Shown: positions 14,922-30,102, counted from the first letter of the stretch. The stretch: DNA of 51,606 nt from an uncultured bacterium (GCA_937871295.1 CALMRE010000167.1:1-51606); one strand, 5' to 3'. Program-made: numbers and translations. The notes: generated by a model not told the origin, from the letters alone.

Positions 14922-15599
14922 TTAAATAAACTGTATGCCGAACACATGGACGATGGTCAGGTAGACGCCGACCACGATGATGATGACGCCGAAGGCTATC
15001 CGTATCGGTTTTTCCCAGCGGGTGACGGCGTTGAAGGCGGTCGCGAGCGCCGTACTGCCCAGCGACAGGGCGACGGCGAAGGCGATGACCGGCACCGCCG
15101 TCCCGATGCCGTAGATGAGCGGCAGGGCGACCGGCGATGACTGCTGTATCGCCAGCGGTATGAGCGATCCGAAAAAGAGCGCCGCCGAAACGGGGCAGAG
15201 GGCGAGGGCGAACAGGAAGCCCATCAGCACCGCGCCGGCAAGGCCAAATTTGGAGAAATCGCGCTGGGTCTTGTTCCCGGGAAGGTTCACCGAGATAAGT
15301 TCGACGAGGAACAGCCCGACGATGATGAGAAGCGGGCCCAAGAGTTTCGGCATATAGATCTGGAGCCAGATCGACACCTTCGGTATCGAAAGGAGGCTCT
15401 GCACCACGATGAAGGCGATCGCCACATAGGCGACCATCCGGCCGATGGTGTAGAGGGCCGCAGATAGAAAGACCGACCGTTTATCGCCGAGGGTCCGCGA
15501 GATGTAGGACACCGCCGCGATGTTGGTGGCGAGCGGACAGGGGCTTACCGAGGTAAGGATGCCGAGCCACAATGCCCCGATGATGGCCGCAACGGTCAT
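14922..15599 (-). CDS. ArsG-like efflux permease (CcdA/DsbD superfamily)
   Basis: The 225-residue, six-helix protein resembles the CcdA/DsbD membrane core, with a Cys-Pro in each half (TSVSPCPLATNIAAV and ALCPVSAALFFG). In the arsEFG group of genes, such a protein (ArsG) is reported to export aromatic arsenicals formed after nitro-group reduction. It starts in ATGA overlapping the end of the ArsF-like gene, so the two are translationally coupled. The alternative reading is a true CcdA that passes electrons to the periplasmic ArsF-like thioredoxin-fold protein; the sequence alone does not separate the two. The surrounding operon favours an arsenic role. Confidence 0.8.
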   Translation of the reverse strand: MTVAAIIGALWLGILTSVSPCPLATNIAAVSYISRTLGDKRSVFLSAALYTIGRMVAYVAIAFIVVQSLLSIPKVSIWLQIYMPKLLGPLLIIVGLFLVELISVNLPGNKTQRDFSKFGLAGAVLMGFLFALALCPVSAALFFGSLIPLAIQQSSPVALPLIYGIGTAVPVIAFAVALSLGSTALATAFNAVTRWEKPIRIAFGVIIIVVGVYLTIVHVFGIQFI

Positions 15600-16087
15600 A
15601 ACCCGTTCTCCGCGCGGAACTTCTTTATCTCGTCGGCAATATAGAGTTTGAAGCGCATCTCGTCGCGCTTGAGGTCCCATACCTCATCGAGATTCTTCCA
15701 TTTCACCTCTTTTCCGCCCTTCGCCGCCGAGAGGATGACCTGCTTGGTGTAGAGTTTGTAGTCATCGATGAAGTGCTCATTGGCCGGTTCTTCGTAGTTC
15801 ACCATACTCCACCGGATGGCTCCGCTCTTCAGTTCGGCCGCGAACTGTTCGTTCACCGCCTCTCTGGTCAGCCGCTCGATGGTGAGGCAGGAATGACAGC
15901 GGAACGAGGTGTGGAAATAGTAGACGGTCAGTGAGCCGCCGGGAATTCCCGCCTCTTTCTTCACCTCGGCCGCCGGAGCGACCGGGGCCGTCTCTTTCGC
16001 CGGAGCGCCGCCGCCGATGACGGCATACACGATCCCCGCCGCCGCGAACAGAACCAGCAGTATCGTCACGATCTTCTTTGCGTTCAT
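15596..16087 (-). CDS. ArsF-like thioredoxin-fold protein
   Basis: The 163-residue protein has an N-terminal membrane helix or signal anchor (about 6-25), a short Ala/Pro linker and a thioredoxin-like domain. That domain contains VYYFHTSFRCHSCLTIE, i.e. a CHSC redox site, and FIDDYKLYTKQVIL. This pattern matches the ArsF family, described as a subunit of nitrophenyl-arsenical reduction. The active site faces the periplasm if the helix is an anchor. An upstream in-frame TTG at 16102 is possible, but the ATG at 16087 with AGGAGG is more natural. It is coupled to the permease by ATGA and follows the small thioredoxin-like gene by 11 bases. The three together resemble arsEFG. Confidence 0.78.
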   Translation of the reverse strand: MNAKKIVTILLVLFAAAGIVYAVIGGGAPAKETAPVAPAAEVKKEAGIPGGSLTVYYFHTSFRCHSCLTIERLTREAVNEQFAAELKSGAIRWSMVNYEEPANEHFIDDYKLYTKQVILSAAKGGKEVKWKNLDEVWDLKRDEMRFKLYIADEIKKFRAENGL

Positions 16088-16098
16088 CGCCTCCTTCC

Positions 16099-16332
16099 TC
16101 AAGCCAGAAGTTTCTTTATCTCGGCGATCGGCGGCACCTTTCCCGCCAGTTTTACCACGCCGTCCACCACCAGCGCCGGTGTGGACATGACGCCGAAGCC
16201 GACGATCTCATTGATGTCGGTCACCTTGATCAGTTCGTACTCAATGCCGAGTTCCTGTGCCGCCGTCTCGGTCATTTGCGCCAGTTGTTTGCACTTGGGA
16301 CAGCCGGTCCCGAGTATCTGCAGTTTCATCAT
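16099..16332 (-). CDS. small thioredoxin-like protein (TM0996/MTH895 glutaredoxin-like family)
   Basis: The 77-residue cytoplasmic protein is a minimal thioredoxin fold with redox site CPKC (KLQILGTGCPKCKQL) and the cis-proline turn MSTPALVVDG. Such proteins accompany CcdA-like permeases and ars genes. Here it is first after arsR and probably corresponds to the ArsE position of arsEFG, or supplies electrons to ArsC. The start was set at the first of two adjacent ATGs, with GGAGGAG six bases upstream. Spacing to its neighbours is short (20 bases after arsR, 11 before arsF-like). Confidence 0.85.
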   Translation of the reverse strand: MMKLQILGTGCPKCKQLAQMTETAAQELGIEYELIKVTDINEIVGFGVMSTPALVVDGVVKLAGKVPPIAEIKKLLA

Positions 16333-16352: not shown

Positions 16353-16709
16353 TTAGGTACACTTACACAGCGGCTTGTTTCCCTTGCGGGCAAGCCACGA
16401 ATCCAGTTTCTTTTTCAGCGCGGCGTAGGGTTTCGAGTCGAAGTGTGTCTGTATGCTTTTCACGATACCCGCCTCCAGCGGCGGCAGATCGGACGAAATG
16501 CGGTAGTAGACCCAGACCGCCTCGCGCCGGTCCTCAAGGATACCCGCCTGCGTCAGATAGCGCAGATGGCGCGACGCTTTCGACTGGGTAAGTTCCAGCA
16601 CCGTCAGGATGTCGCAGACGCACAACTCCTCGCGCCACGACAAAAGCGCGAGGATCGCAAGCCGCGTATCGTCGGCCAGCGCCTTAAAAAATCTCGCTTC
16701 TTTCTTCAC
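16353..16709 (-). CDS. arsR: ArsR-family metalloregulator
   Basis: A winged-helix repressor that leaves DNA when arsenite or antimonite binds. The product (118 residues from the GTG at 16709) has the As(III)-site motif ELCVCDI with Cys30 and Cys32, the recognition helix region TQSKASRHLRYL and a C-terminal CKC that may add metal ligands. The GTG is preferred because GAGGAG lies 7 bases upstream. An ATG at 16724 and a TTG at 16727 are in frame, but the ATG would leave no room for a ribosome site and falls in the operator. As first gene of the nine-gene run it should control the whole unit including hgcAB, via the operator at 16724-16743. Confidence 0.93.
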   Translation of the reverse strand: MKKEARFFKALADDTRLAILALLSWREELCVCDILTVLELTQSKASRHLRYLTQAGILEDRREAVWVYYRISSDLPPLEAGIVKSIQTHFDSKPYAALKKKLDSWLARKGNKPLCKCT

Positions 16710-16723
16710 GGAACGACTCCTCA

Positions 16724-16743
16724 TCAAATAACCGCTTATGCGA
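16724..16743 (-). promoter_or_regulatory. ArsR-type operator
   Basis: Imperfect inverted repeat on the minus strand: TCGCATAA-GCGG-TTATTTGA (arms match at 6 of 8 positions). The ATAA/TTAT core is typical of ArsR/SmtB sites. It starts at the edge of the -10 element and reaches the start region of arsR, as expected for autoregulation. Confidence 0.6.
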
Positions 16744-17841: not shown

Positions 17842-17950
17842 TCATTGAAGAAAGAATAACTGCACTTCAGTAACGGCTCCGCGACAAGTTATCTGCGGCG
17901 CGGGGCGAAAAAATTGACTTCGCACCCCCCTTCACGGCATGGTAGGGACC

Positions 17951-19168
17951 ATGAGCGTACTCTTCGCGATCATCTATCTGCTCGGCGCCGGACAGGGGGC
18001 GTTCCTCAGCATCCAACTCTTCCTGCGGCCCGAGAACCGGCGCGCCAACCGCCTGCTGGCGGTATTGCTCGGCATCTTCGCCCTCAACCTCTTTGAGCTG
18101 TTCCTTGAAGAGATGGGCTACTACCGCCTCTTCCCGCATATGCTCTGGAGTTTTACCTCGGCACCGTTCCTCTACGGCCCGCTGATATTCCTCTACGCCG
18201 GGACGCTCACCGGTCGCTTCACCCGCTTCAAGGCGATCTATTTACTTAATTTCGTTCCGTTCTTCCTCCATTTTGCGACGATCCTCCCCTTCTATCTCAA
18301 GACCGGCGATTTCAAGATCGCGGCCTACGACCACTACCTCGTTTCGGGTTTTCCGACCACCTTTAAGCCGCTGTTCACCTATTCGCTGAAACTGCTCCAC
18401 TACGGCCTCTACCTCGGCCTCACGCTTGGCCTCATCGCCCGCTACCGCCGCGAGATGGAGGAACAGTACTCCGAACTGGAACGGCTCGACCTCGGGTGGC
18501 TGAAACTGCTCGCTATCGTCAACCTCGCGATGATCGGCATATTCATCGCCACCGTTACCGGCCACGGACTCGAGATCATCACGATGACCCACGGCATCAC
18601 CCGCATCAGTTACCTCTGGGACACCGCGCTCATCTACACCGTCGGCATCCTCGCGGTGCGGCAGGCGCCGATATTCAACGAGTACCGGCGGATCATCGAA
18701 CCGGTCGAACCACCGACCCCGCAACCGGGCGAACCACCGGATGGGCGGACGCCGTCCGCCCCTACAGATGCCGTTCAACAGACCAAGGTCAAATACGAAA
18801 AAAGCCGCCTCGACGACCATATCGCCGACGCCTACCTCGCCGAGCTGACCACCCACATGCGGACCGCCAAACCCTACCTCAACAGCGAACTGGGGATCAA
18901 GGAACTGGCGACCGCCATCGGGCTGACCGAACATGTCCTTTCGCAGGTCGTCAACGGCCGCGCCGGGATGAATTTCTTTACTTTCGTCAACAACTTCCGT
19001 ATCGAAGAGGCCCAGCGACTCCTCGCCGACCCGTCACGCAAAGAGGAGAATATACTCGCCGCCGCGTTCGAGTCGGGCTTCAAATCGAAGTCGCACTTCA
19101 ACACGCTCTTCAAGAAGACGACCGGCCTCACCCCGCGCGAATTCCGCCGCCAGAAGGTCGGCCGCTAG
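17951..19168 (+). CDS. membrane-bound AraC-family transcriptional regulator
   Basis: The 405-residue protein has six or seven membrane helices in its first 230 residues, a Pro-rich linker (about 250-275) and an AraC-type double helix-turn-helix at the C-terminus (about 300-405: LNSELGIKELATAIGLTEHVLSQVVN, then ILAAAFESGFKSKSHFNTLFKKTTGLTP in separate parts). Such 7TM-AraC proteins are thought to sense a signal at the membrane. The start at 17951 is preferred over 17939 because TAGGGA is next to it. Codons for DGRTPSAPT in the linker come from a palindromic repeat inserted in frame (18743-18765). The 3' end shares a CTAG with the opposing subtilase stop. Its targets are unknown; the divergent GIY-YIG gene is a candidate. 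Confidence 0.85.
   Translation: MSVLFAIIYLLGAGQGAFLSIQLFLRPENRRANRLLAVLLGIFALNLFELFLEEMGYYRLFPHMLWSFTSAPFLYGPLIFLYAGTLTGRFTRFKAIYLLNFVPFFLHFATILPFYLKTGDFKIAAYDHYLVSGFPTTFKPLFTYSLKLLHYGLYLGLTLGLIARYRREMEEQYSELERLDLGWLKLLAIVNLAMIGIFIATVTGHGLEIITMTHGITRISYLWDTALIYTVGILAVRQAPIFNEYRRIIEPVEPPTPQPGEPPDGRTPSAPTDAVQQTKVKYEKSRLDDHIADAYLAELTTHMRTAKPYLNSELGIKELATAIGLTEHVLSQVVNGRAGMNFFTFVNNFRIEEAQRLLADPSRKEENILAAAFESGFKSKSHFNTLFKKTTGLTPREFRRQKVGR
18743..18765. repeat. small palindromic repeat, copy 2
   Basis: Arms GGGCGGAC and GTCCGCCC (perfect 8 bp) with a GCC loop, followed by CTAC. It has the same layout as the copy at 13172-13196 and lies in frame in the linker of the AraC-type regulator. Confidence 0.5.
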
Positions 19169-21147
19169 AGCACCAGCGTACAACCACAACCGGTAGAACC
19201 TTCCTCTTCGACCACCGCGTCATCCGGGGTTTCCGCCGTATCATTGGCCGGATAGGAATCATAGGAAGAATCGGACTCAGAGGACATGTCGGACTCAGAG
19301 GAATCGTTGTCGGTCACGCTATCGTCGCCGGTCACGGTGTCAGTCACCGTATCGTCCGTTTCATCGGGAGTTTCAGATAGGTCTTCGTCGACCGGTTCGT
19401 TGTCGATCAGTTGATCCTCGTCCGTTAGGTCGCTTTCGTCGTTTATGTCCTTTTCTCCCTCTTCATCGGCCATCAGCGCGTCGTTGTCGGTGGTCGGATC
19501 GTCGCTGAAATCCCAGCAGTCGGCGACGGTGCAGGGCGACGACTCGTCGATGTCCTGTTGTATCTCATCGGTGATGGCGCCGCCGCCGAGGATCCACGCT
19601 TTGGCGATGGCGCGCAGGGCGTTGATGCGGCCGTAACCGTAGTTGTCGCTGTGGCCGTCAGCATCGTAGCCCGCCGCGCCGCTGTTTATCTTGTCGGCGG
19701 TACCGACGATGATGTCGCGCACCTGCAGAGCACTGAGCGCCGGATTGGCCTGCAGGATGAGCGCCGCGATCCCCGACACCAGCGGCGCCGCCGAGGAGGT
19801 ATGCGAGAAGCGGTAGCTGTAGCGTCCCCACCAGCCGTCGCCCCCCGCGACGGGACTGTCGGGATTCCAGCCGGCGGTATCGTGGCACCCGGAGGCCGGG
19901 GTCTCGCCGTCGTCAAGACAGGCCGGCCGGATGAAATTATCGGTGCTCCAGATGCGGTCGTAGTAGAGGGTACTCGACTGCCGTTCGCCGCCGCTGGTCG
20001 GAGCGACGATATCGAGCGCCGCGCCGTAGTTGCTGAAATCGTAGCGGACCCCCTGACTGTTCGAGGCGCCCACCGCCACCGCGTTCGGATGGGTGGCAAG
20101 CCCGTTCCACGCGAAGTCCTCCCCCGAGTTGCCCGCCGCAAAGACGATGACGGTCCCCTTGCCGTCGCGGCCGGTGGTGGTGATGTGCTCGACCAGCGCG
20201 CTGAAATAACTCGACGGCAGGGTGTCGTCGGGACCCCACGAACAGTTGATGACATCGGGATCCTGCGCCATGACCCAGTCGAATATCTGGTCGAAATAGG
20301 CGTCGGCCGCGAGCCCCGTCGATGTCGGATCGGCCGCCATGCGGGCCGCGATCAGACCGCAGCGGGGGCAACTGCCGGTGAGTCCAAGCCCGTTGTCGCC
20401 GCTCGCGACCGCCAGCCCGGTCACCATCGTCCCGTGGAAGTTGCCGGTATCGACCGTTTCGGCGAAGAGATTCCCCGTCTCGACCGGGCCGCCGAAATTA
20501 TTCGAGGCGATATAACGGTCGACAAGGTCCTCGTGAAGCAGGTCGAAGCCGTCGTCGATGACCGCGAGCCGCATCCCGGCGCCGAGGTCGCTCACCCCCG
20601 AAACGATACCGAGGAGCTGCATGAGTCGCCACCCCTCCGCCACATGGGCGTTGTCGCCGCCCCGGATCTGCGCCTTGCCGTCCAGCGAGGTGTAGGGGCC
20701 GTCGCTGTGGATGTTCCACTGATCGCTAAAGTACGGGTCGTTGGTGGTCAGCGGATCGATACCGTAAAGGTTTATCTTAGTATATACGCTCGGTTCGGCC
20801 GCCAGCACCGCCCCCGAATCGTAGAGCGCCGCCGCCACGCTGATCGGGTCGCCCGCGGTGTGAACATAGAACCAGCCGGGCACCGCCAGTCGCCGCACGA
20901 GCGTCAGTCTGTTATTATTTAGTAGTTCCGAGAGGTTGGAATCATCCGGAACTTTGATGTAGAGGTTCGAGGCAAGGAGCTGTGCCGCCCGGGCGCCGGG
21001 AAAATGGACCAGCGCCAGACCACCGGCGGTCACCCCGAGCCGTTCGACCGTTACCGGTTCATGTCCCCGGTAAAAATGGTCGCCGACCGTACCGGCCGCC
21101 GCCATCGCCCCCACCGCCGTCAGAATAGCCGCCAGAATCAACCGCAT
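19165..21147 (-). CDS. secreted subtilisin-like serine protease (S8) with CGC tail
   Basis: The 660-residue protein has a signal peptide (1-19), a pro-region (to about 135) and an S8 protease domain with the triad Asp198 (AVIDDGFD), His238 (NFHGTMV) and Ser451 (HTSSAAP), plus oxyanion Asn340 (AAGNSG). The usual Gly before Thr-Ser is His here. After about 545 an Asp/Ser/Thr-rich linker of about 110 residues leads to the last residues EEEGSTGCGCTLVL. A very similar end closes the protein encoded at 22858-24813. The ATG at 21147 follows AGGAGGT at 7 bases. The protease is probably held at the cell surface through its tail and may process neighbouring exported proteins (inference). The stop codon shares a CTAG with the opposing AraC-type gene. 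Confidence 0.92.
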   Translation of the reverse strand: MRLILAAILTAVGAMAAAGTVGDHFYRGHEPVTVERLGVTAGGLALVHFPGARAAQLLASNLYIKVPDDSNLSELLNNNRLTLVRRLAVPGWFYVHTAGDPISVAAALYDSGAVLAAEPSVYTKINLYGIDPLTTNDPYFSDQWNIHSDGPYTSLDGKAQIRGGDNAHVAEGWRLMQLLGIVSGVSDLGAGMRLAVIDDGFDLLHEDLVDRYIASNNFGGPVETGNLFAETVDTGNFHGTMVTGLAVASGDNGLGLTGSCPRCGLIAARMAADPTSTGLAADAYFDQIFDWVMAQDPDVINCSWGPDDTLPSSYFSALVEHITTTGRDGKGTVIVFAAGNSGEDFAWNGLATHPNAVAVGASNSQGVRYDFSNYGAALDIVAPTSGGERQSSTLYYDRIWSTDNFIRPACLDDGETPASGCHDTAGWNPDSPVAGGDGWWGRYSYRFSHTSSAAPLVSGIAALILQANPALSALQVRDIIVGTADKINSGAAGYDADGHSDNYGYGRINALRAIAKAWILGGGAITDEIQQDIDESSPCTVADCWDFSDDPTTDNDALMADEEGEKDINDESDLTDEDQLIDNEPVDEDLSETPDETDDTVTDTVTGDDSVTDNDSSESDMSSESDSSYDSYPANDTAETPDDAVVEEEGSTGCGCTLVL

Positions 21148-21343
21148 ACCGATACCTCCTTTGCAGGTCACTGGTCACTCACTACTATAAAAATCGTCGA
21201 AAATCGGCCGCACAGGGCGGTCAATGCCCATTCCCGAGGTTTCAGAACCTTTATTTTGTCCTCACCGGCGGCCCGGAACGAAAAAAACCAAAAAGAGCGG
21301 TCTGGTGTATCTGAGAAACATTCTTTCCTACGGAGGAAGTACG

Positions 21344-22846
21344 ATGTCGAAATTCAGTTGGGCGATCCCGGCGATGATCCTGTCTCTCCTGTTCATCTCC
21401 TGTACCGTCGCAGAGGAACCGGGCGAGACGACCGACGACCTGACCGTCGCCGATACGGCGGGCGGCGATGACGGCGACACCACCGCGTCGGCCACCTGCG
21501 GCGACAACATCACCAACGGCACCGATGTCTGCGACGGCGACGCGGTCGACTGCACGACGCTGGGCGACTTCACCGGCGGCCTCGCGGTCTGCAAGAGCAA
21601 CTGCACCGGCTACGACACCACCAACTGCGTGAAAGAGACCTCCGAGGGGACGACGCCCGACAGCGACACCCCCGGCGCGACCGACGACGGCGCGGTGATA
21701 TCCGACGAAGACCCGGGCGTGTTCGACAAGAACGCCGGCGGCTTCTGGACCGATCCCGACACCTATCTCATCTGGGAAGAGCCGATGGGCAATCAGGGGG
21801 CGGGCGGCATGGGGCCCACACACGCCAACGCCGAGAAATACTGTAATGACCTCGTCCTCGCCGGGGCAAAGGACTGGCGCCTGCCGACCATCGACGAACT
21901 GCGGACCCTCGTGCGCGGCGTTTCCACCACCATGACCGGCGGCACATGTCCCACCACCGAGGCATGCTCCAATCAGGACACCTGCAATAAAGATAAGGAC
22001 AACACGCAGGGCTTCGGCAATTCGTGTCTCGGCTGTCAGGCGCTCGCCGACACCTACGACCCGGCGTTCAGTTACCTCGAATCGTCCGACTGCCAGCTCA
22101 CCGACCGCCAGTTGACCAACCTCGAATGTTACCGCGTGCCGCGCCTCACCGGTCCCTGCGACGGCGACTGGTCCGCCACCCCGAACACCAGCACCACCGG
22201 CACGCAGACCAAGGCTTTCTGGTATCTCAACTTCAAGCGCGCCCTCATCAACAGCGACGCCGATCTTTTGAGCGGCGCCAACTGGGTCCGCTGTATCCGC
22301 GCCGGAACCGTGGACGATATTCCCGAGGGGCAGACCGACTATCCGCCGGTCGCGTCGAGCGAATGTATCCGCGACCTCGACTGTCCGGTCGAGAAATACT
22401 GCGTCGAGAATCAGTGCATCCTCATCCCCGAGGAGACCTGGCTCGACAGCGTAAGCGGCCTTACCTGGCAGACCTTCCCGGCGAAGAAGACCTGGGCCGA
22501 CGGCATCGCCTACTGCGATGCGCTCGATCTGGGCGGTTCGGCCGATTGGCGGCTCCCGACCATCGATGAACTGAAGACGCTCTCCTCCTGCACCGCGACC
22601 GCGACCTGCGGCATCACCGATTCCTGCGCCGGCTACACCGCCTGCAACGGCGGCAGCGCCGACTGCACAGGGTGCGCGAGCGGCAACTACCTCCCCGAGA
22701 TACTGGGGCTCGACATCCAGAACCACTGGTCGGCGACCGAAGAGACGCAGACCGCCACCGAGAACGCGTGGACGCTCAACTTCAGCACGAGCAAGGTCGG
22801 CTATCTCGATAAAGGCTGGGAATTCACCGTCCGCTGCGTGCGGTAA
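21344..22846 (+). CDS. cysteine-rich lipoprotein with two DUF1566 (Lcl-type) domains
   Basis: The 500-residue product begins with a lipoprotein signal (LLFISC, Cys20) and an acidic Thr/Asp linker. Next comes a Cys-rich module of the kind CGDNITNGTDVCDGD...CKSNC...TNC (about 45-95), common in deltaproteobacterial surface proteins. Two DUF1566 domains follow, each with the signature DWRLPTIDEL (about 175-200 and 395-420) and each broken by a Cys-rich insert. DUF1566/Lcl domains are related to lectin-like or legume-ligand folds, so carbohydrate or protein binding at the surface is plausible. GGAGGAAG precedes the ATG. It is 11 bases ahead of the next exported protein, so both are likely co-expressed. 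Confidence 0.82.
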   Translation: MSKFSWAIPAMILSLLFISCTVAEEPGETTDDLTVADTAGGDDGDTTASATCGDNITNGTDVCDGDAVDCTTLGDFTGGLAVCKSNCTGYDTTNCVKETSEGTTPDSDTPGATDDGAVISDEDPGVFDKNAGGFWTDPDTYLIWEEPMGNQGAGGMGPTHANAEKYCNDLVLAGAKDWRLPTIDELRTLVRGVSTTMTGGTCPTTEACSNQDTCNKDKDNTQGFGNSCLGCQALADTYDPAFSYLESSDCQLTDRQLTNLECYRVPRLTGPCDGDWSATPNTSTTGTQTKAFWYLNFKRALINSDADLLSGANWVRCIRAGTVDDIPEGQTDYPPVASSECIRDLDCPVEKYCVENQCILIPEETWLDSVSGLTWQTFPAKKTWADGIAYCDALDLGGSADWRLPTIDELKTLSSCTATATCGITDSCAGYTACNGGSADCTGCASGNYLPEILGLDIQNHWSATEETQTATENAWTLNFSTSKVGYLDKGWEFTVRCVR

Positions 22847-22857
22847 AGGAGTATAAC

Positions 22858-24813
22858 ATGCGCAAACTCATTCTTCTGGCCACGATCCTCATCACGGCGG
22901 CGCTTGCGGCCGAAACGGTCGAAGGCGATACGCTCGGCCCCGCGGTCTCGAAGATCGGCGACCGCGAACTCAAATGGGAGGACGGCGCCCACGATTTCTT
23001 CGTGATGTTCAAAAGTCTCCTTTCGCGTCAGTTCGACACCGCGTCGAGCCAGACCAACATGCAGCCCGACACCTGTCTGGACGGTTCGACCTTCACCCTG
23101 AGCGATCTCAACATCCCGCCCGACGCCTACATCACCGACGCCTTCCTCATCTGGAACGGCGCGGTGCCGCTGGAGGCGCTCGATGCCGCCACCGACAACA
23201 CCGTCACGCTCCGTTTCACCGGCGCCGGCGGCGCGGCGCTGGAGCGTGAGATAACGGCGGGCGATGCACAGCTCCTCGGCGGCGAGAAGGGCTTCCCGTT
23301 CGAAGGAACGCGGCTCCTGCGCCAGATCGTCAACGAAGATCACACCGGCTATGTCGATAGCGAACTCGCCTACTTCACCTACCGCGTCGACATCACCGAT
23401 TTCTTCGCCGAACTGCACGCCAAAGGGCGCGAACTGGGCCTTGCCGACGGCGCGAGTCTCGCGGGCGACTACACCGTTTCGGGACTCGACTGCACCAACC
23501 AGACCTTCCCCTATCTCCAGAACACCTCGCTGGTGAGCAACTGGGCGATCGTCTTCGTCTACACCTCCAACGCCCCCGGCATGAACCCGAAAAAGATATA
23601 CCTCTACAACGGACTCAAACTCTACAACCATGAACAGACCCCGGTGACCGTTTCGGGATTCCAGTTACCCGACAGCCCGGTCATCCGCCTGACGCTCATG
23701 GTATCCGAAGGCGATTCGGACCTCTATGTGGCCGACGCCGAACATATGCTCCCCGAAGGACTCGATTTCCGCGGCAGGCCCGATCTGCCGTGGGCGCCGG
23801 TCTTCAACATCTGCCATCCGCACCGCGAACCGTTCGCGTTCGGGCAGAAAGGCTACGACGACATCTTCAACTCGATATCGAGTTTCTACAACTGGGACGG
23901 CGATCAGGTCTACTGCATCGGCGGGCTCACCACTGCCCCGGGCGATACCGACCCCGCGACGGCAGAGTGGGCGATCGATGTCGACACCTTCATCCTGCGG
24001 CCGACCGATTTCCCCGGCCATTTCGCGCCGGGCGACACCGACCTCGAATTCAACATCCGCGCCAATCAGGATATGGTGGTGACCAACCTGATGATCGTAT
24101 CGGTCGACACCAAACCGGCGTCGTTCGACATCCCCGCCACGGAGGAGAAGAGTTACTGCTCCTGCGCCGACGCCGCCCTCTCGTTCTGTGACGGGTCGCC
24201 GCTCTACTACCTCATCCGGGTCGAGAACTGGGGCGAAGCGGTGGCGACTCAGGTCACCGTCCGCGACGCGATACCCGGCGAAGTGGACTACCTCCCCGGC
24301 ACCACCGAGGTGGGCTACGACGCGGTCGGCAACGGCGAACCGCAGTGGCACACCGTCGCCGACGATGCGGGCATATCGCCGGTCGTAGCGGGGCTCATGG
24401 TCGCCGATACGCTTCAGCCCTGCGTGGGCGGCAGTTGTTCCGAACGCTATTTCGTCCGGTTCAAGGTCCAGCCGAAAGAGGGGCTTCCCAAAAATGTCGT
24501 GATCAACAACACCGCCGAGATATTCGACGCCGGGACCGCCGCCTACTTCACCAACAGCAATGTGCCGGTGCGGCTCCGCAAGGCGCTCGTCTGTCCGTCG
24601 GCCGAAGTCTGCGCATCGCCCGACCGGTGCGATCCGGCGTGCGGCGGTTGCATCGGGGCGACCGAAGAACCGGTGACCGACGACACCGCGACGGCCGACG
24701 ATGAAGGGACGGCCGACAGCGTGGTACCGGTGAACGATTCTGATAATCCCGAAGTGAGCGATGAGGTGATCGAAGAAGAACCCAACGCCTGCGGTTGCAG
24801 CGTAATCGGGTAA
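22858..24813 (+). CDS. secreted DUF11-like repeat protein with CGC C-terminal tail
   Basis: The 651-residue product has a signal peptide (1-18). A long N-terminal region has no recognised domain but contains SNWAIVFVYTSN and AFLIWNGAV, which recall surface proteins with repeat-associated beta domains. A DUF11-like conserved-repeat domain follows (about 455-570: YLIRVENWGEAVATQVTVRD, INNTAEIF in separate strands), then a Cys-rich knot (CPSAEVC...CDPACGGC), a Thr/Asp/Glu linker and the terminal EEEPNACGCSVIG. The tail is like that of the subtilase at 19165-21147. It follows the DUF1566 lipoprotein in an operon and ends in a clear terminator. A structural surface protein is the best guess. Confidence 0.8.
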   Translation: MRKLILLATILITAALAAETVEGDTLGPAVSKIGDRELKWEDGAHDFFVMFKSLLSRQFDTASSQTNMQPDTCLDGSTFTLSDLNIPPDAYITDAFLIWNGAVPLEALDAATDNTVTLRFTGAGGAALEREITAGDAQLLGGEKGFPFEGTRLLRQIVNEDHTGYVDSELAYFTYRVDITDFFAELHAKGRELGLADGASLAGDYTVSGLDCTNQTFPYLQNTSLVSNWAIVFVYTSNAPGMNPKKIYLYNGLKLYNHEQTPVTVSGFQLPDSPVIRLTLMVSEGDSDLYVADAEHMLPEGLDFRGRPDLPWAPVFNICHPHREPFAFGQKGYDDIFNSISSFYNWDGDQVYCIGGLTTAPGDTDPATAEWAIDVDTFILRPTDFPGHFAPGDTDLEFNIRANQDMVVTNLMIVSVDTKPASFDIPATEEKSYCSCADAALSFCDGSPLYYLIRVENWGEAVATQVTVRDAIPGEVDYLPGTTEVGYDAVGNGEPQWHTVADDAGISPVVAGLMVADTLQPCVGGSCSERYFVRFKVQPKEGLPKNVVINNTAEIFDAGTAAYFTNSNVPVRLRKALVCPSAEVCASPDRCDPACGGCIGATEEPVTDDTATADDEGTADSVVPVNDSDNPEVSDEVIEEEPNACGCSVIG

Positions 24814-27378: not shown

Positions 27379-30102
27379 TTATTTCTCTTCTATGATGCTG
27401 AGGAACGCATCGGTGCCGCCCATGCTGAGATTGCCGTCAAACGCGCTGCTGGTGGCCCCGACAACGAATATCCGGTCGTCGGGATCGATGGCGACGGCAT
27501 TGCCGTAATCATTCAACCCCGATCCCCACTGTTCGGCCCACAGTTGTGTACCGGTCCCATCAACCTTGACGAGGAAGATATCGTAGCCGCCCCTGCTTTG
27601 GTTCTCATCCAACGCACCGGATGTATACCCGGTGACGAAAACGGCCCCTGAAGAAGAAACGGCGACACCGGTCCCTTCCTCCATCGCGGAGGAACCCCAT
27701 TGTTTGCTCCATTCTTGTGTGCCATCCGAGCGCCACTTGGTAAGAACCATGTTCTGATCGCCGAGAATGGTGAGGGGACTCGTTTGGCTATCAGTATAGT
27801 CACCGGTTTTACCGGTCACATAGATGTTCCCCGCGCCGTCCACGGCGACCGCGTTGCCGACATCATTGTATTTGGTGCCCCATTGTTTGGTCCATACCTT
27901 GGTCCCGTCCGGAGAGAACTTGGTCAGGAAGGCATCTTTGCAAGAAATGTGGAAGCATTGAGTTATATGCATTCCTGAACACATAACGCACGCGGCCCCC
28001 GCATTTGTGTTGCCGTCGAGTTCGCCATCAGTATACCCGGTCACGAAGACATTTCCCGCGATATCGACCGCAATCCCCTTGCTTGCCTCCAAGCTGAAGG
28101 AGTCCGATCCCCATTGCCGGGTCCACACTTTGGTGCCGGAGTTATTAAACTTGGCAAGGAACATATTGACTTCGCCCGCGGGAGTTTGCCCGTCGATGGA
28201 TCCATCCGTATAGCCTGCTACGAAAATGTTCCCCTCTTTATCAATAGCGACGGCATGGCCGCTATCTTCTTCCGATGTTCCCCACTCCCTAGTCCATTCT
28301 CTCTCACCATCGCCATCCCATTTCGAAAGAAAAACATCGTAGCCTCCGGCGTTGGTTATGTTGCCGTGGAGTACGCCGCCGGTATATCCCGTCATGAAAA
28401 TGACGTTCGCGGCATCGATGGCTATCGAGTTACCAATGTCATAAGCCGCCGAACCCATTTGACGACTCCATGCCCGCGTACCGTCGGGAAGCCATTTGGT
28501 CAGGAAGATATCGATACCGCCCGCCGTCGTGTTGCCATGTATCGAACCGTCGGTACTGCCGGCGACGAAGATGTTCCCGCCGCTATCGATGGCGAGCGCC
28601 GTCGCCTGATCGGCGGCATTGTTCCCGTAAAAAAGGGCGCTCCATCCCGCCGTGCCGGTACTGTCCCAGATACCGGCGAACAGATCGTAGTTCGACCCTG
28701 CGGTCATTATCTCGTAGCCGGTCACCGCTATCGTGCCGTCATAGGAACGGATCAGATCGGCCGGGACCGTCGTACCGATGTCGGCGGTCCATAATGCGGC
28801 ACCGTCGAAATCGTATTCGGCGAGCGTCGCGCCTCCCGCAACGATAAGGCCCGATGCATATCCATCGAGCCCGCCGAGACTATCGTCGCCGATCTCCCCC
28901 CATTGTCGCGTCCAGAGTATCTGCCCCGCCATATCGAGCCGCGAGAGGAATACATCGGAACAGTAGTCGTATCCGCAGGAACCGCCCGCATTAACATTTC
29001 CTTCAAAGGATCCCTGTGTGGTCCCGGCAATGAACACGCTGCCGTCATCGGCAACGAATATCTCTTCCGGGATATCCTCGGCATCGTACAAACCCCACTG
29101 TACGGTGTCTATCCGGACCCCGTCGGCGGTGAAACGGGAAAGAAAGATGTCGTGACAATCGGCACACCCCACCATTCCCGACCCGGGAGGGAATTCCATA
29201 CAATTGCAACGGCCACCGGCGTTAGTGTTGCCGTCGAGGTCGCCATCGGTGCCGCCGGCGACCAAAATGTCGCCGTTGGGCGCAACCGCGACCGCAGAAC
29301 CGTACCCGGTCGCCTCTTCGCCCCATTGCACGGTCCATATCTCATTCCCGTCGGCATCCCACTTCGCAAGCAATATCGAGTTATTGACGCTTCCGGCGAG
29401 CAGCACGTTCCCCTCGCTGTCGAGCGTCATCCCCCGCACGAAATCCTGCCATTCGGTACCCCATTGCTTCGTCCACAACTCGACACCGGCGCTGGTCCAC
29501 TTGGTAACGAAAATGTCCTTGTAACCCCCGGCGAAGTCGGCATTGTCTCCCAACGAACCGGCGGTGACACCGGCGACGAAGAGGTTTCTCTCCGCATCGA
29601 TCGCCATTGCCCGCACCCAGTCATCCTCCTCAGTTCCCCACTGCCGGGTCCACAGGAGAGTACCATTTCCGGTTATTTTCATGAGAACGAGATCGTCCCC
29701 GCCCCGGTTCTGATGACAGTTAAAATAAGCATCGGTGCTCCCCGCGATATAGATGTTGCCGGAAGGGTCGACCGCTATCGCTTTTCCGATATCGAGACTT
29801 TTCATCCCCTCACCGCCCCACTGATGCGTAAGCCGTATCACGCGGCCGGTATCGACCGGCTTCGGCTCACTCCCCTGAGAACAATTCTCTTCCGGCAAAA
29901 GATCCTCATCCACCGGCAGAGCATTCTCGGCAGTGGCATCTTCTTCCGGTACCGCGACCAGATCATCGCTTTCGGGGGCGGTATCGCCGTCGTTCACCGC
30001 AACCGGCTCATCGGTACCGGTACGCACCCTCCCATCGGTACAGGCGGCGACCATCGCGATGATCGCCAAACTTTCCAACAGCGACAGCCAAGATCGTTTC
30101 AT
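27379..30102 (-). CDS. SBBP-repeat lipoprotein with 14 repeat units
   Basis: The 907-residue product has a lipoprotein signal (MVAAC, Cys21) and an acidic linker (to about 85). The rest is built of about 14 SBBP (beta-propeller) units of 50-65 residues. Each starts near W(T/S)(R/K)QWG and contains AVDxxGNIFVAGYTDG and a (D/N)(I/V)FL(S/T)K strand. Two middle units (ADIG..., LFYG...) are degenerate. Three units carry Cys-rich inserts at the same loop, one containing CADCH. Fourteen units would fit two seven-blade propellers. Such proteins are secreted and are thought to bind partners or ligands. The ATG follows GGAGA, with a strong promoter at 30129-30157. Confidence 0.88.
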   Translation of the reverse strand: MKRSWLSLLESLAIIAMVAACTDGRVRTGTDEPVAVNDGDTAPESDDLVAVPEEDATAENALPVDEDLLPEENCSQGSEPKPVDTGRVIRLTHQWGGEGMKSLDIGKAIAVDPSGNIYIAGSTDAYFNCHQNRGGDDLVLMKITGNGTLLWTRQWGTEEDDWVRAMAIDAERNLFVAGVTAGSLGDNADFAGGYKDIFVTKWTSAGVELWTKQWGTEWQDFVRGMTLDSEGNVLLAGSVNNSILLAKWDADGNEIWTVQWGEEATGYGSAVAVAPNGDILVAGGTDGDLDGNTNAGGRCNCMEFPPGSGMVGCADCHDIFLSRFTADGVRIDTVQWGLYDAEDIPEEIFVADDGSVFIAGTTQGSFEGNVNAGGSCGYDYCSDVFLSRLDMAGQILWTRQWGEIGDDSLGGLDGYASGLIVAGGATLAEYDFDGAALWTADIGTTVPADLIRSYDGTIAVTGYEIMTAGSNYDLFAGIWDSTGTAGWSALFYGNNAADQATALAIDSGGNIFVAGSTDGSIHGNTTAGGIDIFLTKWLPDGTRAWSRQMGSAAYDIGNSIAIDAANVIFMTGYTGGVLHGNITNAGGYDVFLSKWDGDGEREWTREWGTSEEDSGHAVAIDKEGNIFVAGYTDGSIDGQTPAGEVNMFLAKFNNSGTKVWTRQWGSDSFSLEASKGIAVDIAGNVFVTGYTDGELDGNTNAGAACVMCSGMHITQCFHISCKDAFLTKFSPDGTKVWTKQWGTKYNDVGNAVAVDGAGNIYVTGKTGDYTDSQTSPLTILGDQNMVLTKWRSDGTQEWSKQWGSSAMEEGTGVAVSSSGAVFVTGYTSGALDENQSRGGYDIFLVKVDGTGTQLWAEQWGSGLNDYGNAVAIDPDDRIFVVGATSSAFDGNLSMGGTDAFLSIIEEK

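Follow-up and report, generated by a model that had tools for sequence, protein, structure and literature searches.

A short helix-less cysteine tail on exported proteins of one bacterial order and its likeness to the MYXO-CTERM and CaaX signals

The known C-terminal sorting signals of prokaryotes, LPXTG, PEP-CTERM, GlyGly-CTERM, MYXO-CTERM and others related to them, are tripartite by description, and one of the three parts is a membrane helix by which the substrate is kept in place for its enzyme; the JDVT-CTERM and Synerg-CTERM signals are also described as possessing a helix. Proteins with a CaaX box are cytoplasmic and carry their cysteine as the fourth residue from the end. In M. xanthus, the protease MrtX removes the MYXO-CTERM end in a manner that depends on the cysteine motif, and it has been proposed to act once this cysteine has been lipidated by an Lgt-like enzyme (PMC11980579). 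CPBP proteases also cut prenylated CaaX ends, which lack a helix (PMC11980579); since Rce1 cuts such helix-less ends, a CPBP protease needs no helix, provided that the cysteine is lipidated.

Throughout one bacterial order, about 20–30 exported proteins per genome share a tail in which a cysteine is followed within a few residues by the stop codon. Two of them lie in the window, that is, the whole stretch of 51,606 nucleotides that was analysed, which is contig 167 of an assembly of 3.45 Mb (271 contigs, 99% complete) from an uncultured bacterium. An earlier note had described Cys-Gly-Cys ends on this pair, and translation confirms that both proteins terminate in that way. The subtilase (19165..21171, minus strand; Peptidase_S8, PF00082, E 5.6e-41) has a probable start at the ATG at 21147, a Sec signal peptide (MRLILAAILTAVGAMAAA) and, between the protease domain and the tail, an acidic linker rich in Asp, Glu, Thr and Ser (19189..19554, limits approximate); its C-terminus, VVEEEGSTGCGCTLVL, closes on GCGCTLVL, with the tail CGCTLVL at 19168..19188 and the stop TAG at 19165-19167. 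The exported DUF11/DUF7619-type protein (22858..24813, plus strand) consists of the signal peptide MRKLILLATILITAALA, a Cys-containing middle, an acidic Asp/Thr linker (24646..24789, limits approximate) and the C-terminus VIEEEPNACGCSVIG, with the final residues ACGCSVIG; its tail CGCSVIG occupies 24790..24810 and the stop TAA 24811-24813. In genome G001 (GenBank MAG RA.bin96, L079) the copies of both proteins are 89% identical to those of the window, and the tail of the subtilase is unchanged. The window also holds CcdA/DsbD-like and thioredoxin-like genes (14922-16102, minus strand), followed by an ArsR-type regulator (16353-16727, minus strand).

A pattern search of the window's own genome, G000, found further copies. 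CGC[ST]xhx, which like all patterns and ends given below is directly followed by the stop, occurs at 21 places as against 3 for the reversed pattern, and 20 of these coincide with the in-frame end of an open reading frame that has an Asp/Thr/Glu-rich linker. A second subclass, GC[SA]hxhh, is found on some 10 further proteins, and the tail proteins of this genome, about 30 in all, end in CGC[ST]h[VIL][FWLY] or GC[SA]h[TV]h[LIF]. The domains that precede the tails are unrelated and include subtilase, DUF11-type, metallopeptidase, agmatine-deiminase-like, calcium-repeat and propeller domains, among others. The stop codon differs between these genes (TAA, TAG or TGA) and no conservation is seen downstream of it, which indicates that the tails genuinely terminate there; a frameshift or stop read-through masking a helix was considered and rejected, the stops being variable and no in-frame conserved or hydrophobic stretch lying beyond them. 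Over the 60 residues preceding the tail cysteine, the mean content is 17.9 Asp plus Glu and 2.1 Lys plus Arg; of the linker as drawn from the founding pair, the acidic character is general, but the EEE ahead of the tail is not. A protein of 62 residues (L292:501-689:-, G000 contig 159) contains, besides its signal peptide, nothing but the tail GCALTLL with an acidic linker before it, and a DUF11-type protein of G004 (L135:6719-8623:-) has the variant Cys-rich end CCCACSVVW.

Export was called by eye and with a simple rule, without SignalP. By this reading, 24 of the 25 own-genome tail proteins with a complete N-terminus look Sec-exported (22 with signal-peptidase-I-like signals, two with a lipobox), as do all 14 such proteins in G019 and at least 13 of 16 in G001, one of these with a lipobox and the starts of the rest not being clear-cut. 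Cytoplasmic copies were also sought: among 217 open reading frames without an export signal in 400 kb sampled from G008, a loose tail rule picked out 2, one a fragment of an exported paralogue and the other a probable shadow frame, and the tail proteins are nearly all exported. Three of them, L117:2280-4880:+ and L119:2766-7445:+ (G000) and L389:114-1847:+ (G001), bear an N-terminal lipobox in addition to the tail, and would carry two lipid anchors or else leave one of both signals unused.

The arrangement recurs in mirror image among N-terminal lipoproteins. The Lcl_C protein beside the tail genes (21224..22846, plus strand; likely start ATG 21344), a probable N-terminal lipoprotein with the lipobox LLFISC, and an SBBP beta-propeller lipoprotein (27379..30102, minus strand) with the lipobox MVAAC, both lipoboxes being read by eye, have an acidic linker immediately after the lipobox cysteine and no C-terminal tail; lipoproteins of the same genus (L177, L180-L183) have an Asp/Thr linker in this position too. 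The linker abuts the cysteine in both classes, after it in the lipoproteins and before it in the tail proteins, and would look like a spacer beside an anchor. The system of lipobox, Lgt and LspA resembles the tail, in mirror image, in the small residue beside the cysteine and in the hydrophobic residues, and shares with it here the same acidic linker, but the signal of the order is C-terminal and no signal helix is joined to its cysteine.

The distribution of the tail was followed in 386 genomes, of which 28 belong to the phylum of the window, 25 to the order and three to f4, the sole other sampled family of the phylum. CGC[ST]hhF was found at 13, 17, 15, 6 and 17 places in the five genomes of the window's family (sum 68), at 5 in two related genera of the order (g7 and g8, G018 and G022; 3 and 2) and at 7 among the remaining 379 genomes, the reversed control giving 2 across all 386. 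GC[SA]xxhh gave 410 places in the 25 order genomes as against 33 for its reversed control, and was at background in the three f4 genomes (9 as against 8 reversed). In the samples from lineages beyond the order both patterns were at or near control level, a few large genomes lying moderately above it for GC[SA] (G353, 16 vs 4; G242, 13 vs 3). That the tail might be an oddity of the window's family alone is ruled out by the subtilase and metallopeptidase homologues and by the GC[SA] pattern, both order-wide; CGC is an elaboration by the window's family, and what stays constant across the order is (G)C[STA], after which most residues are hydrophobic. NCBIfam and Pfam hold no model for the tail.

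The last tail cysteine usually stands 4 or 5 residues ahead of the stop. In a compiled set of tails, which contains one doubtful entry (PSDGGCSCALIP) and whose regularity is partly built in because it was gathered by patterns, 70 of 72 have Gly before the cysteine and all have Ser, Thr or Ala after it; the last residue is hydrophobic or aromatic in nearly all, with F or L/I strongly preferred; and the spacing is 4 residues in the two-Cys form and 5 in the one-Cys form. The C-termini of the subtilase and metallopeptidase homologues, not having been selected for the tail, provide an unbiased sample. The tail cysteine is present in 27/27 subtilase homologues of the order, 4-8 residues from the stop and exactly five in 17, with ends such as GCALTLI, GCSLTMI, GCSASII, GCSFTAF and GCSCSFISL, and the metallopeptidase homologues end in GCGCTVVF, GCSCRLIF, GCSCGLIY, GGCSILFH and EACSALLI; in all 27 subtilases and in the metallopeptidase homologues that were read, the tail is retained while the adjacent linker diverges. 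The subtilases of the order have no membrane helix (maximal 19-residue hydropathy below 1.0 in the last 45 residues), and the order tails have no basic, Arg-rich end. The idea put forward in the earlier note, that of a distinct minimal signal for sorting, has good support: the tail is present in many copies, sits on exported proteins, is restricted to the lineage, is conserved across orthologues and has no helix. The two outcomes that would have spoken against it, an absence of more copies and a presence on cytoplasmic proteins, were looked for, and both searches favoured the idea.

With MYXO-CTERM (TIGR03901; MrtX/MrtC/MrtP) the tail shares a C-terminal site on Sec-exported surface proteins, an invariant cysteine in a GCGC-type motif, a low-complexity linker before it, dozens of copies per genome and an encoded CPBP protease of the myxosortase family. 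The MYXO-CTERM motif, however, continues into a membrane helix and then an end rich in Arg (PMC11980579), whereas the tail of the order runs for 4-6 residues after the cysteine and stops. Five tail segments and the window proteins gave no match to the NCBIfam MYXO-CTERM model at E values up to 10; lacking the helix, the basic end and the model match, the order tail is not MYXO-CTERM by definition. The separateness of the two that had been supposed from the window nevertheless gives way in f4, where all eight subtilase-type ends read, from three genomes, consist of [GS]C[SN][YF], a membrane helix and basic residues (for example SSCSYSSINNYNYYLSLMLFIFLLIFRRKNNY and SGCSFENSSSSNSIIMILLSILSSLFIFRRKLQ, the basic end being of RRK type). 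As judged from these residues this is the MYXO-CTERM layout, and a myxosortase-like protease is encoded on both sides; in a 400 kb sample of the f4 genome G026, no Cys-helix ends were seen beyond the subtilases. With the helix in f4 and without it in the order, one protein family in one phylum has the signal in both forms, and the order tail is proposed to descend from a MYXO-CTERM-like signal or to be its sister. Tripartite signals being widespread, it would be simpler to suppose that the helix was lost in the order.

The CaaX box and Rce1, both eukaryotic and archaeal, provide the other close parallel, in that a short helix-less end follows the cysteine, a CPBP protease is encoded and hydrophobic residues stand past the cysteine; the proteins of the order differ in being exported, as their signal peptides indicate, in having 4-5 residues rather than 3 after the cysteine and in having no known prenyltransferase. 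JDVT-CTERM with MrtJ and Synerg-CTERM with MrtS also have an invariant cysteine, and the CPBP protein of the order scores on the MrtJ and MrtS models, but below all Mrt cut-offs. Most likely the order tail would work like MYXO-CTERM, or like an extracytoplasmic CaaX box.

As for a processing enzyme, which the earlier note had suggested looking for, a myxosortase-like candidate is at hand, a CPBP/Rce1-family protein encoded in 28/28 phylum genomes (PF02517, E 3e-17), and its role on the tail is putative. The best matches of the order-wide protein in G000 (206 aa, C74:44990-45610) are the myxosortase models (MrtP 94, Mrt_core 84, MrtC 80, MrtS 72, MrtJ 66 and MrtX 53 bits), and these are also the best for its orthologues in G001, G004, G006, G008, G014, G018 and G022 and for the f4 proteins L299 and L301 (Mrt_core 91 and 98 bits). 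The scores lie below every curated cut-off, with 76-85 bits in the order and 91-98 in f4 on Mrt_core (cut-off 100) and about 81-111 bits on MrtP (cut-off 250). The motifs EExxxR, FxxxH and HxxxN are intact (invariant E115, E116, R120, H154, H191 and N195), and the predicted model of the G000 protein has a pLDDT of 92.5; searches of the PDB with this model (Foldseek) and with the profile (HMM) gave no significant match, and neither support nor contradict the assignment. The CPBP gene is not consistently beside tail genes. Being present in both the order and f4 it does not track helix loss, which represents one branch point with no repeated co-gain with the CPBP. Each of the 28 phylum genomes also encodes 3-7 Lgt-family proteins rather than a single one; of these, one is canonical (RLGNFMNSEIVG type) and the others carry RxGC...GCC[FY]G; as these paralogues are phylum-wide, none is singled out and none tracks the tail.

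From such features we infer that the tail proteins are lipidated, cleaved and anchored at the surface. They would cross the inner membrane via Sec, a step for which the signal peptides speak at the sequence level; an acyltransferase, perhaps an Lgt paralogue, would then attach a lipid to the invariant cysteine on the periplasmic side of this membrane; the CPBP myxosortase homologue may recognise the lipidated cysteine and trim [STA]-h-x-h-h in an Rce1-like manner, so as to leave a C-terminal lipid-Cys; and the type II secretion system, whose secretin GspD is found above cut-off in 25/28 phylum genomes, could bring the protein out to the surface in its folded state, there to be held by the lipid with the acidic linker as a spacer. 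Taken whole, this scheme of an order-wide helix-less sorting signal, lipidated on its cysteine, cut by the myxosortase homologue and serving for surface anchoring, is given about an even chance. It has against it that a helix-less soluble exported protein must reach the lipidating enzyme unaided, and that the N-terminal lipobox on at least three tail proteins (L117, L119, L389) would make a second anchor redundant there. A bolder reading, to which we give a little less than an even chance, is that of an order-wide extracytoplasmic CaaX-like box, lipidated on its C-terminal cysteine and trimmed by the myxosortase homologue, which would have arisen by helix loss from a MYXO-CTERM-type signal and whose short form is carried by tens of proteins per genome.

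It is also conceivable, though unlikely, that the tail is neither cut nor lipidated and is a linear tag that stays intact and is recognised by way of its hydrophobic C-terminal residues, the reader being a receptor of PDZ type or one associated with the secretin, such as a component of type II secretion or a protease that processes C-termini. PDZ ligands and the substrates of DegS and Prc have hydrophobic last residues, the last residue of the tail is of this kind with its strong preference for F or L/I, and a type II secretion system is present; such a tag would, however, leave the invariant cysteine and the choice of S, T or A after it unexplained, and the helix and basic end that follow the cysteine in f4 would be illegible to a reader of free C-termini. 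Lipidation by an Lgt-like paralogue followed by no proteolysis, or by a cut made by some protease other than the myxosortase homologue, is distinctly unlikely. The 3-7 Lgt-family proteins per phylum genome, several with RxGC...GCC[FY]G, are in keeping with it, and so is a second CPBP protein confined to f1, the tail-rich family of the window (L127:1238-1870:+, G000 contig 51; L134; L141), which might make the cut. The active site of this second protein is nevertheless degenerate, with QEFLYRG in place of EExxxR (QE for EE) and HxxxN missing, and the protein is absent from genus g4, where GC[SA] tails abound; it is possibly an inactive receptor-like paralogue.

The chance is slim that the tail cysteines form disulfides, intermolecular or to an envelope component, so that a covalent redox tether would take the place of the lipid anchor. 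There are two cysteines in CGC, and the thioredoxin-like and CcdA/DsbD-like genes lie at window 14922-16102, but these adjoin an AraC-type gene and not the tail genes, in most of the order the tail holds just one cysteine (GC[SA]hxhh), and a tether would account neither for the hydrophobic end nor for the homology to a Cys-helix signal. That the tails have no signal function and are a shared relic spread through duplication and domain shuffling is highly improbable: some tail genes are indeed paralogous (the DUF11 set, the metallopeptidase pair), yet the tail is retained on unrelated folds across genera and families although the neighbouring linker is replaced, and in the 400 kb from G008 the non-exported open reading frames were free of it except for the fragment and the one probable shadow frame.

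If the helix-less version works, the helix would be dispensable, and the bacterial CPBP sorting enzymes would be directly linked to the eukaryotic CaaX/Rce1 pathway. As the substrate motif amounts to only about seven residues, questions raised by MYXO-CTERM, such as which enzyme lipidates the cysteine and whether lipidation comes before cleavage, would be easier to test. Annotation that seeks a cysteine with a helix and Arg residues overlooks a surface proteome of about 20–30 proteins per genome.

Among the Lgt-like proteins, L123:2474-6166:- (G000 contig 59) and its orthologues L130 and L136 (1231-1252 aa) join an Lgt-like membrane domain to a Reg_prop-type beta-propeller and an AraC-type helix-turn-helix, and are apparently membrane regulators built on the lipoprotein acyltransferase fold. 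This fusion was considered as the lipidating enzyme and set aside, being regulator-like and missing from most of the order sampled; similar fusions, judged by open-frame length, occur in 4/5 genomes of the window's family. In the window, the subtilase is adjoined by a membrane protein (17939-19168, plus strand) with an AraC-type helix-turn-helix at its C-terminus, and its DNA-binding part is similar to that of the fusion.
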